Positions 32,080-38,314 of a DNA stretch of 64,000 bases are shown here, piece after piece (position 1 is the first letter of the stretch; each line of letters starts with the position of its first letter). A program made the translations under genes and the position numbers. The stretch comes from Candidatus Ornithospirochaeta stercorigallinarum (lineage in GTDB: Bacteria > Spirochaetota > Spirochaetia > Sphaerochaetales > Sphaerochaetaceae): contig DVIF01000074.1 in NCBI GenBank assembly GCA_018711525.1, forward strand, positions 1 through 64,000, in the 5' to 3' direction. The notes below the pieces were generated by a model that was not told the DNA's origin, searched no databases, and saw only the letters and a list, made by a program, of their open reading frames with translations.

Positions 32080-32901
32080 ATGAACAATGATGAAAGACGG
32101 GAGAGAAATCGTCGGATACTGAATGAAACACTGGATTACATACACTCTGATGAGTATTTGAGTGCGAGTGTACGCACTTCAATGGCTCATCTCGAGTTTT
32201 TCCCCTCTGAAAAGATAGTGGAGTGCGAGCGGGGGAAGTTTGAGCATCCTGCAACTGTAGTTGTCTCCAGGAAAAGGACAGCAAGTGCGCTCTATGAGAG
32301 TGGGTATGGGAGCGTGATGCTTCTGGATTTTGCTTCCGCTACGAGTCCAGGAGGTGGAGTGAGGAAAGGCTCTAATGCGCAGGAGGTGTCGCTTTGCAGG
32401 GTCTCTACACTCCTATTATCCTTGGAAAGCAGGAAAGCCCGTCCTTTCTATGAGCGCCATAGGAAAAGCGGGGATGCCTACTACTCTGATTCCCTCCTGC
32501 TCGTTCCTGATGTCGTATTCTTCCGCTCTGATGATGAGAGTGCGGAAATCCTGGCAAGAAAGAAGTGGAGGAAGGCCTCCGTCATAGTCTCCGCCGCTCC
32601 GAACCTGAGACGGATAGGGGAGTGGGAATGTTTTTCCAATGAAGAGAAAGAGAGGTACTTCGAGCTGATGAGAAGCCGTGTGGACTCTGTTTTCAGGGCT
32701 GCTGCCAAAAAAGGTGCGGACCACCTTATCCTCGGCGCCTTCGGATGCGGGGCTTTCAAGAATCCTGCAGGTATTGCAGCCGGTATCTTCAGGGATGTAC
32801 AGCAGGATTACCTGAGGTCGTTCAAAGTGATTGAATATGCCATAGGTGGGGGAAACGAGAGGGATGAGAACCACCAGGCGTTCAGGAGGGCACTTTCATG
32901 A
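32080..32901 (+). CDS. TIGR02452-type microbial PARG catalytic-domain protein with altered signature (QEV)
   Basis: LLDFASATSPGGGVRKGSNAQEVSLCRVSTL; HLILGAFGCGAFKNPA. Confidence 0.88.
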   Translation: MNNDERRERNRRILNETLDYIHSDEYLSASVRTSMAHLEFFPSEKIVECERGKFEHPATVVVSRKRTASALYESGYGSVMLLDFASATSPGGGVRKGSNAQEVSLCRVSTLLLSLESRKARPFYERHRKSGDAYYSDSLLLVPDVVFFRSDDESAEILARKKWRKASVIVSAAPNLRRIGEWECFSNEEKERYFELMRSRVDSVFRAAAKKGADHLILGAFGCGAFKNPAGIAAGIFRDVQQDYLRSFKVIEYAIGGGNERDENHQAFRRALS

Positions 32902-33449
32902 AGGATTATGAACTTGTAAGACTGTCTAAAAGGATGTCATATGCACTGCGCCATCACCCTGATGAGTTCGGACTTGAGCTTTCTTCTGACGGGTCGGTCG
33001 AAATAGGGAGGCTTATCGAGGGCATCAACAGGGCCACATCATCTGAGTATACCCTTGATTCTGTCATTGCTGTCTTGAGGATGCCTGGCAAGAAACGATT
33101 CTTCCTGAAGGATGGAAGGATTGCAGCATACTATGGTCATACGACAGAGCGCAAGGTTGTAAGGATGGAGATTGCTCCTCCATCAGTCCTTTACCATGCA
33201 ACGAGCCACAAGGCGATTGGATGCATAAGGAAGGAGGGGCTTCTTCCTATGAGAAGGCAGCATGTGCATCTCTCTGCAACCAAGGAGACAGCCCTGGTTG
33301 CAGGCAGGAGAAGGGATGGGCATCCTGTGCTGCTGAAGGTCGATGCAAAGCGGGCATATGAGGATGGGGTGAGGTTCTACCAAGGTAACGAGGATATCTA
33401 TCTGGCGGACCCTATTGGTGCAGGATATCTTACAGAGGTGGAGTACTGA
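32898..33449 (+). CDS. kptA: RNA 2'-phosphotransferase (Tpt1/KptA family)
   Basis: ATGA overlap; LSKRMSYALRHHPDEFGLELSSDG, LYHATSHKA, VHLSATKETALVAGRRRDGHPVLLKVDA. Confidence 0.92.
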   Translation: MKDYELVRLSKRMSYALRHHPDEFGLELSSDGSVEIGRLIEGINRATSSEYTLDSVIAVLRMPGKKRFFLKDGRIAAYYGHTTERKVVRMEIAPPSVLYHATSHKAIGCIRKEGLLPMRRQHVHLSATKETALVAGRRRDGHPVLLKVDAKRAYEDGVRFYQGNEDIYLADPIGAGYLTEVEY

Positions 33450-33499
33450 GGTTTTTCTTTCCTCTTGAAAGCTCTTTTTCGAGGGATTATCATTTGACT

Positions 33500-34867
33500 A
33501 TGGCTAAGATACTTATAAAAGACGGACTGCTTGTGGATACTGAATGGAAAAGACATCAGGATATCCTTGTCGACGGCTCGAAGATAGTGAGAATCGCTCC
33601 CCATATCGATGAGAATGAAATCGGAGAGGATGTGAATATAATCAGTGCCGATGGGCTTTGTGTCCTTCCCGGCCTTATCGACGCCCATACGCATTATCAT
33701 CTGGTGAGCAGGGGCACGGTCACTGCGGACAGCTTCCCTGAAGGCTCCCGCCTTGCGTCCTTCGGTGGGGTGACGACGGTTGTAGATTTCGCAGACGATG
33801 ATAAGAAAAGCCTCCTTGGGAGTTTTGACAATCGGCGTAAGGAGATGAGGGGCATGGCAATAGACTATGCGCTTCATCAGGGGGTCTATGCCTACCGAAG
33901 CGATATAAAGAAGGAGCTGGAAGAGGTAAAGAAGAAAGGAATCGGCACGATAAAGATCTTCACGACCTATAAGAATGTGGGATACCTGGTGGAGAAACGC
34001 GATGAGCTCAAGGCGATCTTCAAAGCATCAAAAGAGCTTGGAATCATGGTCTCCATACATTGCGAGGATGATGGGATGATCACGAGGATCGAGGATGGCT
34101 GGAAGGGGACCTATCTTCCAAAGGACCATGCCGACATGCGCCCCTCCGAGGCCGAAGCCGAGGCTATAAGATATGTCTCTTCAATCGCAGAAGAACTCGA
34201 TATGCCGATCTATATCGTACATCTTTCATCTGCATCTGGGCTTGAAGAGGTGAGAAGGCAGAGAAGCAGGGGTGTGCATCTCATCGTTGAGACGACGCCG
34301 CACTATCTTTTCCTCGAGAGAAGCAAGCTTGAAGGGGATGATGGTCCGCTTTATGTGATGACACCTCCTCTGAGGACGAAGGATGACAATGAGGCTCTTC
34401 AGGAGGCGCTGCTGGATGGAGAGATACAGGTTGTGGCGACAGACCACTGCTCATTCACCAGGGAGCAGAAGCTTTCAAGCCATGACTGCCGCACCATCTA
34501 CCCGGGAATCCCCGGGACGGAGGAGATGCTTCCGCTTCTAAATACATTTGCAATCAGCAGCGGACGTCTATCCCTCTCGCAGATAGTCAACCTCACATCC
34601 ACAGGTCCTGCAAAGGCATTCGGACTTTACCCTGCAAAAGGTACGCTTGCAGAGGGAAGCGATGCAGATATCGTGCTCTTTAATCCCGACCTCTCATGGA
34701 CGATCGGCAGTGATACGATCCATAGTGCCGCAGGATACAGCGCATATGAAGGGATGACAGTGACGGGAAAGGTCATGATGACCATTCTCAGAGGCAGGAT
34801 CATCATGGGGGACGGCATCTACCTCGGACTTGAAGGGGATGGACAGTATTTGAAGGCTGAGAGATGA
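33500..34867 (+). CDS. Dihydropyrimidinase / D-hydantoinase family amidohydrolase
   Basis: LPGLIDAHTHYH, IKIFTTYKN, SIHCED, IVHLSSA, VATDHCSF. Confidence 0.9.
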   Translation: MAKILIKDGLLVDTEWKRHQDILVDGSKIVRIAPHIDENEIGEDVNIISADGLCVLPGLIDAHTHYHLVSRGTVTADSFPEGSRLASFGGVTTVVDFADDDKKSLLGSFDNRRKEMRGMAIDYALHQGVYAYRSDIKKELEEVKKKGIGTIKIFTTYKNVGYLVEKRDELKAIFKASKELGIMVSIHCEDDGMITRIEDGWKGTYLPKDHADMRPSEAEAEAIRYVSSIAEELDMPIYIVHLSSASGLEEVRRQRSRGVHLIVETTPHYLFLERSKLEGDDGPLYVMTPPLRTKDDNEALQEALLDGEIQVVATDHCSFTREQKLSSHDCRTIYPGIPGTEEMLPLLNTFAISSGRLSLSQIVNLTSTGPAKAFGLYPAKGTLAEGSDADIVLFNPDLSWTIGSDTIHSAAGYSAYEGMTVTGKVMMTILRGRIIMGDGIYLGLEGDGQYLKAER

Positions 34868-36012
34868 TTAAAGCGGTATTGTTTGATATGGATGGAGTCC
34901 TCGTCGACAGCGAGGACCTTTCCATCGGAATAGGAATCAGATATTTTGAAAAGAAGGGATATAAGGCTGATAAGAAGAATTTCCTCTCCCATCTCGGGAC
35001 GGGAATGGCCGATTTCGTCCTGGGTACGGCATCGGAGCTAGGTGCTCTTGATGTGACAGTTGAGGATGCTGATGAGTTCTATCACTCGGTATATGCCCAG
35101 GAGTTGAAAAAGCATGATATCGCAATGCCGGGAGCAAGGGAAGCGCTGGAGAACTTCAAGAAGGCAGGACTCAAGATTGCAATCTGTTCTTCCGCTCAGC
35201 GCTGGAAGGTTGAGGCGAACATAAAAGCACTCGGCCTTGAGCCCTCTTTCTTCGATGTCGTCATAGCAGAGGATATGATAAAGAGGAACAAGAGCAATCC
35301 CGATATCTATCTTCTCGGCGCTGCGATGACTGGAGTCGACCTTTCTGATGCGATCGTCATTGAAGACAGCCCGGGAGGCGTCCTCGCAGGAGTCAATGCA
35401 GGGATAAGGACGGTGGCTGTATCTACGACCATGACACGAAAGGAAGCGCTCTCCTGTGGCGCCGACAGGGTGATAAGCGATGTGAAGGAAATCTCCTCAT
35501 TCACATCAGCAGAGGCTCTGGAGGAATATCTCTTCGGCATTGCAGATAAAGAGGTTCTTTATGGTGCCTCCTATGTGAAGGCTACAGGACTTCCTTTGAG
35601 AGAGGAGGTTGTCGACAAATGCATCAAGGCGGCCTTGAGCGCCCGCATGAATGCATACACCCCGTATTCGGAGTACAAGGTGGGTGCTGCAGTCCTTAGT
35701 GCCTCCAGCGGGAGGATCTATAAAGGCTGCAACATAGAAAACTCTTCCTATGGAGCGACAATATGTGCAGAGCGCAATGCAGTCACCACTGCTTTGGCAG
35801 CGGAGGGGGCGCTGGGCATAGATCTCCTGGTCGTTGCAAGTGAGGACTATCCACCGGCACCTCCGTGTGCTGTATGCCTGCAGGTGCTCTCAGAGTTCGC
35901 AAAGGCGGATACAAAGGTCATACTGGTCTCAACCTCGGGTGAGAAAGTTGAATATTCCTTCTCAGAGCTATTGCCAAAACCATTTGTTTTTCCGACTATG
36001 AGAAAATCATGA
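34864..36012 (+). CDS. Fusion: HAD-superfamily phosphatase (beta-phosphoglucomutase-like) plus cytidine deaminase
   Basis: N-term VLFDMDGVLVDSE...IEDSPGGVLAGVNAG; C-term AYTPYSEYKVGAAVL...CAERNAV...PPCAVCLQVL; single uninterrupted frame. Confidence 0.93.
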   Translation: MIKAVLFDMDGVLVDSEDLSIGIGIRYFEKKGYKADKKNFLSHLGTGMADFVLGTASELGALDVTVEDADEFYHSVYAQELKKHDIAMPGAREALENFKKAGLKIAICSSAQRWKVEANIKALGLEPSFFDVVIAEDMIKRNKSNPDIYLLGAAMTGVDLSDAIVIEDSPGGVLAGVNAGIRTVAVSTTMTRKEALSCGADRVISDVKEISSFTSAEALEEYLFGIADKEVLYGASYVKATGLPLREEVVDKCIKAALSARMNAYTPYSEYKVGAAVLSASSGRIYKGCNIENSSYGATICAERNAVTTALAAEGALGIDLLVVASEDYPPAPPCAVCLQVLSEFAKADTKVILVSTSGEKVEYSFSELLPKPFVFPTMRKS

Positions 36013-37271
36013 TTAGATACATCTCTCTCTTCATCTCCATTATCCTGATCTCCTTCACATCCTGTGTGAATACAGATGTGTACTCTTCTGAATTCACGAT
36101 GAGAAGCGATTTAAGCGTCGAGGAGAAGCTTGAAGGTTTTGGAGCGAAGAAGATCTATGTCGATGAGCCTGAGACATATTTTGCAGGGGAGCTTTGGCTG
36201 GAAAAGCTGATAGAGCTCACAAAAGAGAGCGAGGACTACATCCTGATATCGACATTCCTCGGCTCCTCAAGCGAGAGGACCGAGCCTTTTTACGACCTTC
36301 TCTGCGAGAAGGCGGAGAGCGGGGTCGATGTCTATCTGATAATAGACGGGGTCTCCAGTTACGACATGACTGCATCCAAGGACTTCCTCACACCTCTTTA
36401 TTTCCTCCGCGAGAGCGGTGTGCACCTGATTGAGTATTCCCCGATTACATTCACCCACCTTCTATCTCCCCATGAACTTATGGTCAGGGAGCATAGGAAG
36501 ATGTTCGTCTTCGATGGAAGGAAATGCGCCATAGGAGGAATGAACATAAACTACATCTCCATCGGATCGGGGGAGGGTGGAAACCAGAGGGACAGCATGT
36601 ATCTCTTCTCTTCCTCTGCCTTGAGCAGCGCACTGACGGATGAGTTTGTGAATATATGGAACGAGATGAGTGTTGAGCCTCTTGATAGGAATGATTTCGC
36701 TTCCTATCCTGAATCGGATACGGGCTCGATTCCATCATACCTTTTCAATCAGGGGCCGGGAGGGAAGACGACGATCGGAGAACTCTATGCTACTCTGATA
36801 AACAGTGCTCAGAATGAGATCGACCTCATAGCATTCCTTCCCGTCTATGATGATAACATGGGAGATGCTCTCAGACGTGCGAAAGAGCGCGGTGTCTATA
36901 TAAAGGTCGTGGTCTCTACAGAGGCAAGGTCGTTTGCGGGGGTCACATACATGCTTCCTGACCTGCTTGAGATAGCTGATGAGGTCTATCTTACATCCGA
37001 TGACAAGGAGCCTCTTCTCCACGAGAAGCTCATGATTGTGGATGATATGTATACGGTGATAGGATCTGTGAACTTCAACTACCGCTCGATGGGGCTTAGC
37101 AACGAGATTGCACTTGTCCTTGTAAGTGATGAGTTCGCATTAAAGGAGAAGGCGCATCTTGATGAGCGCATCGCAGACGGTTCTGAGAGGATCTGCCTTG
37201 AAGATGCCATTGCCCTTAAAAAGGAGCATGGCTCTGCGTTTGCATATTTCTTGAATTTCTACGGAGGTTGA
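36009..37271 (+). CDS. Phospholipase D-like lipoprotein (cardiolipin synthase family)
   Basis: Lipobox FTSC; two HKD motifs EHRKMFVFDGRKCAIGG and LHEKLMIVDDMYTVIGSVNFNYRS. Confidence 0.88.
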   Translation: MIRYISLFISIILISFTSCVNTDVYSSEFTMRSDLSVEEKLEGFGAKKIYVDEPETYFAGELWLEKLIELTKESEDYILISTFLGSSSERTEPFYDLLCEKAESGVDVYLIIDGVSSYDMTASKDFLTPLYFLRESGVHLIEYSPITFTHLLSPHELMVREHRKMFVFDGRKCAIGGMNINYISIGSGEGGNQRDSMYLFSSSALSSALTDEFVNIWNEMSVEPLDRNDFASYPESDTGSIPSYLFNQGPGGKTTIGELYATLINSAQNEIDLIAFLPVYDDNMGDALRRAKERGVYIKVVVSTEARSFAGVTYMLPDLLEIADEVYLTSDDKEPLLHEKLMIVDDMYTVIGSVNFNYRSMGLSNEIALVLVSDEFALKEKAHLDERIADGSERICLEDAIALKKEHGSAFAYFLNFYGG

Positions 37272-37756
37272 TTTTGAAAAAGAAGATATTGGTAATATCG
37301 CTTCTATTCTTTCTTCTTTCTCCTCTGTATTCATTCTCCTTCTTCTACAGCATAGGAGGAGAGGGGGAGGGACTTGATGGGGAGAGCCACTATGCCGGGA
37401 TGAACTTCGATGTAGGGCTTTCTTTCTTTAACGAGCCGTATCTCATGGCTGATGCCTCTGTGGTCCTTTCACCTCTTTTTGAATCGGTCTCCATGAACAT
37501 CTCTTCAGAGCCTTTCTCGGTGCCTGTGCACATGTATTTCCTTTTTGCGAATCCTGTACTCTATTCTCCGAAGATAAAGGTCGGTGCGGAATATGTCTAT
37601 CAGGATGGATGGTATTACAGGGCGGAGGTCGCCTTGTTGAATTTCCGTGACAAGTCTTTTGAATATGAGTTCCTCACTCCGATGCTGACTGTCGATGCCG
37701 AGGACTATTCGCTGGGTTATGGGATCAGGATAATGGAATTCACATATTTCATGTAG
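37268..37756 (+). CDS. Hypothetical secreted protein, beta-barrel-like
   Basis: Signal peptide; ATGA-type overlap with upstream PLD gene (start codon TTG); alternating aromatic strands. Confidence 0.5.
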   Translation: MILKKKILVISLLFFLLSPLYSFSFFYSIGGEGEGLDGESHYAGMNFDVGLSFFNEPYLMADASVVLSPLFESVSMNISSEPFSVPVHMYFLFANPVLYSPKIKVGAEYVYQDGWYYRAEVALLNFRDKSFEYEFLTPMLTVDAEDYSLGYGIRIMEFTYFM

Positions 37757-37765
37757 GAGGATGGG

Positions 37766-38314
37766 GTGAAGAGGATAGCTGCTTTCTTACTTGTCATGTT
37801 TTCGCTGTTCTCCGTTTCTGCCGGGGATTATCAGGATATCGCAATGTCTTTTGCTCCGTCATCGACATACGGCTATTACGGGGCGATGGGGCTTGAAGAT
37901 TCACTGAGAGCCGACATCTCTGTCTCGCTCGGTCTTTCGTCCCGTTTTGAGGCGATTGCGGGAATTGTCACGGAGCTTACACCCGATATCGTGGATGAGA
38001 ATACATTCTACCTTGAATTCGATTACGCCCTCCTTGGAAAGAGAAGTACTGCAAGCAAGGTTGCAGGAAGCGGGATAAACATGCTCCTTGGAATAGGGGG
38101 CTTTTATAGCAGGACGTTCTCTTCAAGAGAGCAGGGGGCGGGGGCATACCTCTCGATAACCCCTCTTACGGTAGGCAGTCCCGTCACAGGAAGAAGGGAG
38201 AAGTTCATGAAGACCAATGTCGGCTATGACTTCATCAACAACCGCATGGTTGTATCCTTTTCCATTCTTACATTCGATCTGTATGTGAGGGGGACATACC
38301 GGGATTATCTATGA
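37766..38314 (+). CDS. Hypothetical secreted protein, beta-barrel-like
   Basis: Signal peptide; Gly/aromatic alternating strands ending RGTYRDYL. Confidence 0.5.
   Translation: MKRIAAFLLVMFSLFSVSAGDYQDIAMSFAPSSTYGYYGAMGLEDSLRADISVSLGLSSRFEAIAGIVTELTPDIVDENTFYLEFDYALLGKRSTASKVAGSGINMLLGIGGFYSRTFSSREQGAGAYLSITPLTVGSPVTGRREKFMKTNVGYDFINNRMVVSFSILTFDLYVRGTYRDYL

Follow-up and report, generated by a model that had tools for sequence, protein, structure and literature searches.

At positions 34864-36012 (+) of the 64,000-nucleotide stretch of spirochaete DNA analysed here (hereafter the window), a phosphatase of the HAD type and a cytidine deaminase (CDA) are encoded by one and the same gene. This raises the question of whether such a fusion is genuine and, if so, whether the product of one active site is meant to serve as the substrate of the other.

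Architecture and conservation of the fused gene

The gene represents a single open reading frame of 382 amino acids with an ATG start and without an internal stop. Residues 1-212 (34864-35499, +) correspond to a phosphatase domain of HAD subfamily IA (beta-PGM-like), which is matched over residues 5-186 by Pfam HAD_2 (PF13419; 100 bits against a cut-off of 23.8) and by the broad HAD-IA model TIGR01509 (58.5 bits, cut-off 29.4); the specific HAD families in the list of the 25 best NCBIfam matches of the fusion all stay below their own cut-offs. The HAD motifs I to IV (DxD, S/T, K and ED) are present as D8 and D10, S110, K143 and E167/D168; motif I (D8-M-D10, nucleophile and acid/base; 34885-34893, +) and motif IV (E167-D168; 35362-35367, +) are invariant in the alignment and profile designated A1. 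The inter-domain linker of approximately 34 residues (213-246; 35500-35601, +) is the most variable part of the protein. It is followed by a tetramer-type CDA domain (residues 247-376; 35602-35991, +), which matches Pfam dCMP_cyt_deam_1 over residues 252-347 (57 bits, cut-off 25) and passes the NCBIfam model TIGR01354, cyt_deam_tetra (130.4 bits, curated cut-off 113.65). Its zinc and catalytic motif C301-A-E303 (35764-35772, +) and its zinc motif C335-A-V-C338 (35866-35877, +) were read from a motif table and alignment, in which C301, E303, C335 and C338, as well as the NxEN motif N290-I-E-N293, are invariant with respect to Bacillota CDAs. An AlphaFold model (24-sequence alignment, mean pLDDT 80.7, pTM 0.57) comprises two folded units separated by a very low-confidence segment at residues 227-241 (pLDDT below 50). 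Foldseek searches retrieved cytidine deaminases with the CDA half (2d30, TM-score of 0.90 normalised to the target); with the HAD half they retrieved BT2127, CbbY, TM1254 and YniC at low TM-scores, which, given the thin alignment, are little informative. The C-terminal domain is therefore predicted from its sequence to be a normal zinc CDA, tetrameric and capable of deamination, and each of the two domains would be catalytically active.

The presence of a complete HAD and a complete CDA in one polypeptide, as claimed in a preliminary description of this DNA, is borne out by the uninterrupted frame and the profile matches, and what it gives as domain order, CDA type (tetrameric) and zinc ligands agrees with TIGR01354 and the motif reading; its extension of the HAD domain to about residue 225 has to be shortened, since this domain ends near residue 212 and is followed by the linker. 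The possibility, raised in the same description, that the fusion would resolve into two genes was not realised, as 48 additional species of this family share the same frame. The total stands at 49 full-length fusions in which the HAD and CDA active sites are both intact, spread over 14 genera of a single spirochaete family: 48 complete genes with a length of 340 aa or more, that of the window among them, and the gene of G136, which has both motif sets intact. Within the genus of the window, a fused match was obtained from 20 of the 24 genomes searched first, one of these matches being cut by a frame break. No fused match was found outside the family in a class-wide sample of 297 genomes; in a further sample of the phylum (n=120) only the window genome matched at an E-value of 1e-40, and a single pattern scan of other phyla returned CDAs alone, apart from one spirochaete fusion. 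Stops within related genes were also considered, and every one of them proved to be terminal.

In both halves of the fusion, synonymous change greatly exceeds non-synonymous change. For close pairs with usable dS, dN/dS amounts to about 0.04-0.13 for the HAD half (pairs with an intact HAD) and to 0.01-0.30 for the CDA half, where the value of 0.30 comes from a dS of 0.03; evolution of the linker is often more rapid, dN/dS being raised in several pairs. Considering that the frame recurs in 48 further species and is under purifying selection, an assembly or frameshift artefact can be rejected, and the fusion is an old, conserved trait of the family. Production of a free CDA from an internal translation start was also considered and rejected: the window gene contains a TTG preceded by AGGA, yet such starts are not conserved, and the linker lacks any in-frame start codon in 9 of the 48 fused genes. 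No description of a HAD-CDA fusion was found in the literature searched, and this domain architecture is, as far as that search goes, apparently undescribed.

Candidate substrates of the HAD half and origin of the fusion

When profile A1 was compared with the PDB, the best match was TM1254 (3kbb, TM_1254; 1.2e-35), followed by a putative beta-phosphoglucomutase and CbbY. HAD relatives of the TM1254/CbbY type are sugar-phosphate phosphatases (PMC4826498), HAD phosphatases in general are broadly promiscuous, and 5'-nucleotidase activity is common among them (PMC8475336). The fusion HAD shares 25-35% identity with its relatives, a level at which specificity is unreadable from sequence. A function as beta-phosphoglucomutase was ruled out by the score with TIGR01990 (69.4 bits against a cut-off of 189.4) and by residues differing from E. 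coli YcjU, in that the H, the R of GISR and the K of AYRKN, which we take to be substrate-binding positions of YcjU, are not kept in the aligned fusion HAD. The model for inorganic pyrophosphatases of the BT2127 type (NF053653) likewise scored below its cut-off (85.1 versus 245 bits), and no nucleotidase family occurs among the 25 best NCBIfam matches.

Unfused orthologues of the HAD are located in other settings. In family f26, those of G111, G142 and G049 are flanked by genes for an FGGY sugar kinase and a transketolase, accompanied by two dehydrogenase genes, and those of G133, G100 and G218 have as neighbours GH13 and GH65 genes as well as a regulator that by eye looks to be of the LacI type; in family f22 the orthologues are found downstream of ABC-transporter-like genes, as judged by sequence similarity only; orthology was established on a tree for G133 and G068, and was assigned to the others by score and cap signature. 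Because the nearest relatives are of the sugar type and the unfused orthologues reside in sugar operons, a sugar phosphate is somewhat likelier than a nucleotide as the substrate of the HAD. These solved relatives and contexts do not support the earlier reading of this domain as a nucleotide phosphatase.

The HAD and CDA genes also occur unfused and adjacent, with the HAD directly upstream of the CDA, in families f17 (G039, G063, G094) and f3 (G025), an arrangement which argues for some link of the HAD to nucleosides. The HADs of these adjacent pairs and most fused HADs carry the cap signature GxGE, and in the HAD tree the adjacent-pair HADs and the unfused HADs of f26 and f25 group with the fused ones. 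In the CDA tree (a quick tree of 134 columns) fused and adjacent-pair CDAs fall together with an SH-aLRT of 98, and the unrelated standalone CDAs of G208, G160, G075 and G333, although from the same genus and family, lie outside this clade. That the two genes adjoin unfused in two other families makes it probable that a single event in the ancestor of the family joined a neighbouring upstream HAD gene and downstream CDA gene. The HAD tree does not cleanly resolve the ancestor, the adjacent-pair HADs being nested inside the fused ones, and this nesting would also fit a later splitting of the fusion; the direction from adjacent to fused is preferred mainly because unfused HADs and CDAs are widespread in the class. 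Two further candidates for such arrangements were dismissed: in family f4 the neighbour of the CDA resembles, from its sequence read by eye, a nucleoside hydrolase, and at the place of a supposed in-frame HAD-stop-CDA pair in G312 there is no HAD.

The location of the unfused orthologues in sugar operons would also be expected if the HAD acted on a sugar phosphate only, unrelated to the CDA, and had been joined to it by a near-neutral accident of operon compaction which was kept for compatible expression levels. The dense operon with its 4-base overlaps and the tolerated HAD remnants and losses (see below) point the same way; retention of HAD-CDA adjacency in the separate families f17 and f3 and selection on both halves in most lineages speak against it, so that we regard such an accident as a serious though distinctly less probable explanation than the one preferred below.

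Separate loss of the two halves

Most lineages keep both active sites, and all states described in the following were read from draft genomes, with the remnants recurring in species pairs. In G190 and G271 the HAD is gone and the CDA on its own occupies the corresponding position between unchanged neighbours, the other sampled members of this genus (G285, G184, G202, G125) being fused; G320 and G323 similarly have a CDA alone with its motifs kept. In two species pairs, G307/G310 and G316/G331, a HAD remnant from which motif I with its DxD nucleophile is gone remains attached to a CDA with all motifs. An intact HAD joined to a deaminase that lacks the zinc ligands, and thus a natural pseudo-deaminase, was observed in G178 and G333 (L162, 6890-7900 (-); L192), the latter genome having in addition a separate canonical CDA. 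Finally, in G160 and G075 the dihydropyrimidinase gene is directly followed by the PLD gene (both described below), the fusion being absent and an unrelated standalone CDA being present in each. Overall, three genera or more have lost or inactivated the HAD, and one has inactivated the CDA.

These states bear on the proposal that the HAD is a (deoxy)pyrimidine 5'-nucleotidase which hands cytidine or deoxycytidine directly to the CDA. Two chemically consecutive steps would then be placed on one chain, the progression from adjacency to fusion with the HAD upstream of the CDA would be accounted for, and 5'-nucleotidase activity is found in many HAD phosphatases (PMC8475336). Obligate transfer of an intermediate would require both active sites to be kept together at all times and is hard to reconcile with halves that are lost or inactivated separately in living lineages; for the same reason the earlier claim that no intermediate is released is not supported. 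Considering, furthermore, that the HAD relatives and orthologue contexts are of the sugar type and that the linker is long and poorly ordered, we deem direct transfer improbable. A channelling nucleotidase-deaminase is possible in the intact fusions and is not supported, and we would give similarly poor odds to a tethered pyrimidine nucleotide phosphatase-deaminase that converts CMP, dCMP or a damaged nucleotide to the deaminated nucleoside with preferential transfer between the sites. If such preferential transfer did take place, the lineages that later lost one half would provide natural controls.

The attached remnants of G307/G310 and G316/G331, the former with a dN/dS of 0.27, could alternatively indicate that the HAD mostly supports the CDA structurally or regulates it, by ligand sensing or oligomer assembly; all catalytic HAD motifs are intact in 49 fusions, and the CDA persists alone with its motifs after loss of the HAD in the four genomes named above (G190, G271, G320, G323), making such a role quite unlikely.

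Operon context, proposed function and relation to known systems

In most genera the gene order is dihydropyrimidinase, fusion, PLD protein, two small ORFs and, in opposite sense, ribose-5-phosphate isomerase B. In the window, the directly upstream gene (33494-34867, +) specifies a dihydropyrimidinase/hydantoinase-like enzyme (TIGR02033, 401.5 bits, cut-off 393.25; synteny) and overlaps the fusion by 4 bases, while the directly downstream gene (36009-37271, +), also with a 4-base overlap, specifies a PLD-superfamily lipoprotein-like protein (PF13091, two stretches; synteny). The PLD gene and the two small ORFs (36009-38314, +), the latter without a Pfam or NCBIfam match, follow the fusion in nearly all genomes of the family. 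The dihydropyrimidinase-like enzyme (window; L210, L226 and others) is strongly conserved across the family (51-74% identity in full-length matches), whether or not a genome also has the fusion. Between the SHMT and dihydropyrimidinase genes, the window furthermore contains a microbial PARG-like gene (PF10021, TIGR02452) and a KptA/Tpt1 RNA 2'-phosphotransferase gene with a 4-base overlap (32080-33449, +), a pair seen elsewhere only in G238 among the neighbourhoods searched and one that appears to be accessory and ADP-ribose/NAD-related.

A uracil or pyrimidine degradation operon centred on the dihydropyrimidinase was considered and rejected, as most of the pathway is missing. Of the 46 family genomes, 7 have a dihydropyrimidine dehydrogenase PreA over its cut-off; the window genome (G000, only 83% complete), G167, G214 and G256 are not among them, and in G296 and G321 PreA adjoins a different dihydropyrimidinase paralogue, 35-37% identical to that of the window. 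The CN_hydrolase matches of G000, G167 and G214 all lie in frames of 570-660 aa that are read as Lnt and NadE, and the combination of this dehydrogenase with a beta-ureidopropionase, as needed for reductive uracil degradation, was not found. Uridine kinase, in contrast, is over its cut-off in 41 of 46 genomes, that of the window included, and pyrimidine-nucleoside phosphorylase (TIGR02644) in one; 31 of the 46 have a nucleoside hydrolase, with none seen in the 83% complete window genome. On these grounds, the best-supported role that can be proposed for the CDA half is to salvage cytidine by way of uridine and UMP.

That the fusion takes part in clearing damaged or non-standard pyrimidine nucleotides alongside the dihydropyrimidinase-like enzyme, whose gene overlaps it in the window and adjoins it in most genera, and whose substrate probably does not derive from dihydropyrimidine dehydrogenase (none being over cut-off in G000), is very improbable, since the dihydropyrimidinase gene is located elsewhere in seven fusion genomes (G226, G040, G136, G296, G313-G315), is absent from the complete, fusion-containing genome G167, and is retained in G018 and G160, which lack the fusion.

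The reading that we prefer, with a probability of roughly 0.6, is that one chain carries two active sites working independently, those of a salvage CDA and of a broad phosphatase for sugar or nucleotide phosphates, which are tethered for the sake of co-expression. The CDA half would convert cytidine and deoxycytidine to uridine and deoxyuridine in pyrimidine salvage, and the HAD half, as a broad phosphatase of the TM1254/CbbY type, would dephosphorylate a phosphorylated sugar or pentose, and possibly nucleoside monophosphates as well, with the phospho-aspartate being formed on D8. We infer that tethering serves mainly co-expression at a fixed ratio and that no passage of substrate between the sites would be needed. 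Adjacency in two families and retention of the fusion over 14 genera suggest a tie closer than mere co-expression.

The fusion is one of two known, very common enzyme families, and living relatives display all states: a distant HAD in sugar operons, adjacent genes, fusion, a dead HAD, a dead CDA, and removal of the HAD. This range constitutes a convenient natural experiment on the purpose of enzyme fusion, and the HAD-CDA case warns against inferring channelling from fusion alone. When compared with tetrameric CDAs (TIGR01354; B. subtilis 1jtk, 2d30), the fusion has the same zinc ligands, the CAER and NxEN motifs and the full length of the fold, and adds an N-terminal HAD. Bacillota CDAs have CRQ, whereas the fusion CDA carries PCxxC-LQ; PCxxCLQ instead of PCxxCRQ (window 35866-35883; L168, L165, L169, L173) is found in most of its spirochaete CDA clade, fused or unfused, and CRQ is kept in unrelated standalone CDAs of the same family. 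The HAD shares with the TM1254/CbbY-type HAD-IA enzymes (3kbb, 4uar) the subfamily, the catalytic motifs and the cap inserted after motif I, and differs in its cap signature GxGE and in being joined to a CDA; this signature marks out an unassigned HAD subfamily. Beta-phosphoglucomutase (TIGR01990; E. coli YcjU) belongs to the same HAD subfamily, with the fusion HAD falling under its cut-off. The plant riboflavin kinase-FMN hydrolase AtFMN/FHy (PMC9678776) similarly combines, in one chain, a phosphatase with a second enzyme of nucleoside-like metabolites; its partner is another one and its reactions are opposing, whereas the proposed HAD and CDA steps would be consecutive. In bifunctional MtlD (7oct; NF046057), a HAD-IA phosphatase is likewise placed N-terminal to another metabolic enzyme, which is a mannitol-1-phosphate dehydrogenase rather than the CDA of the present fusion.
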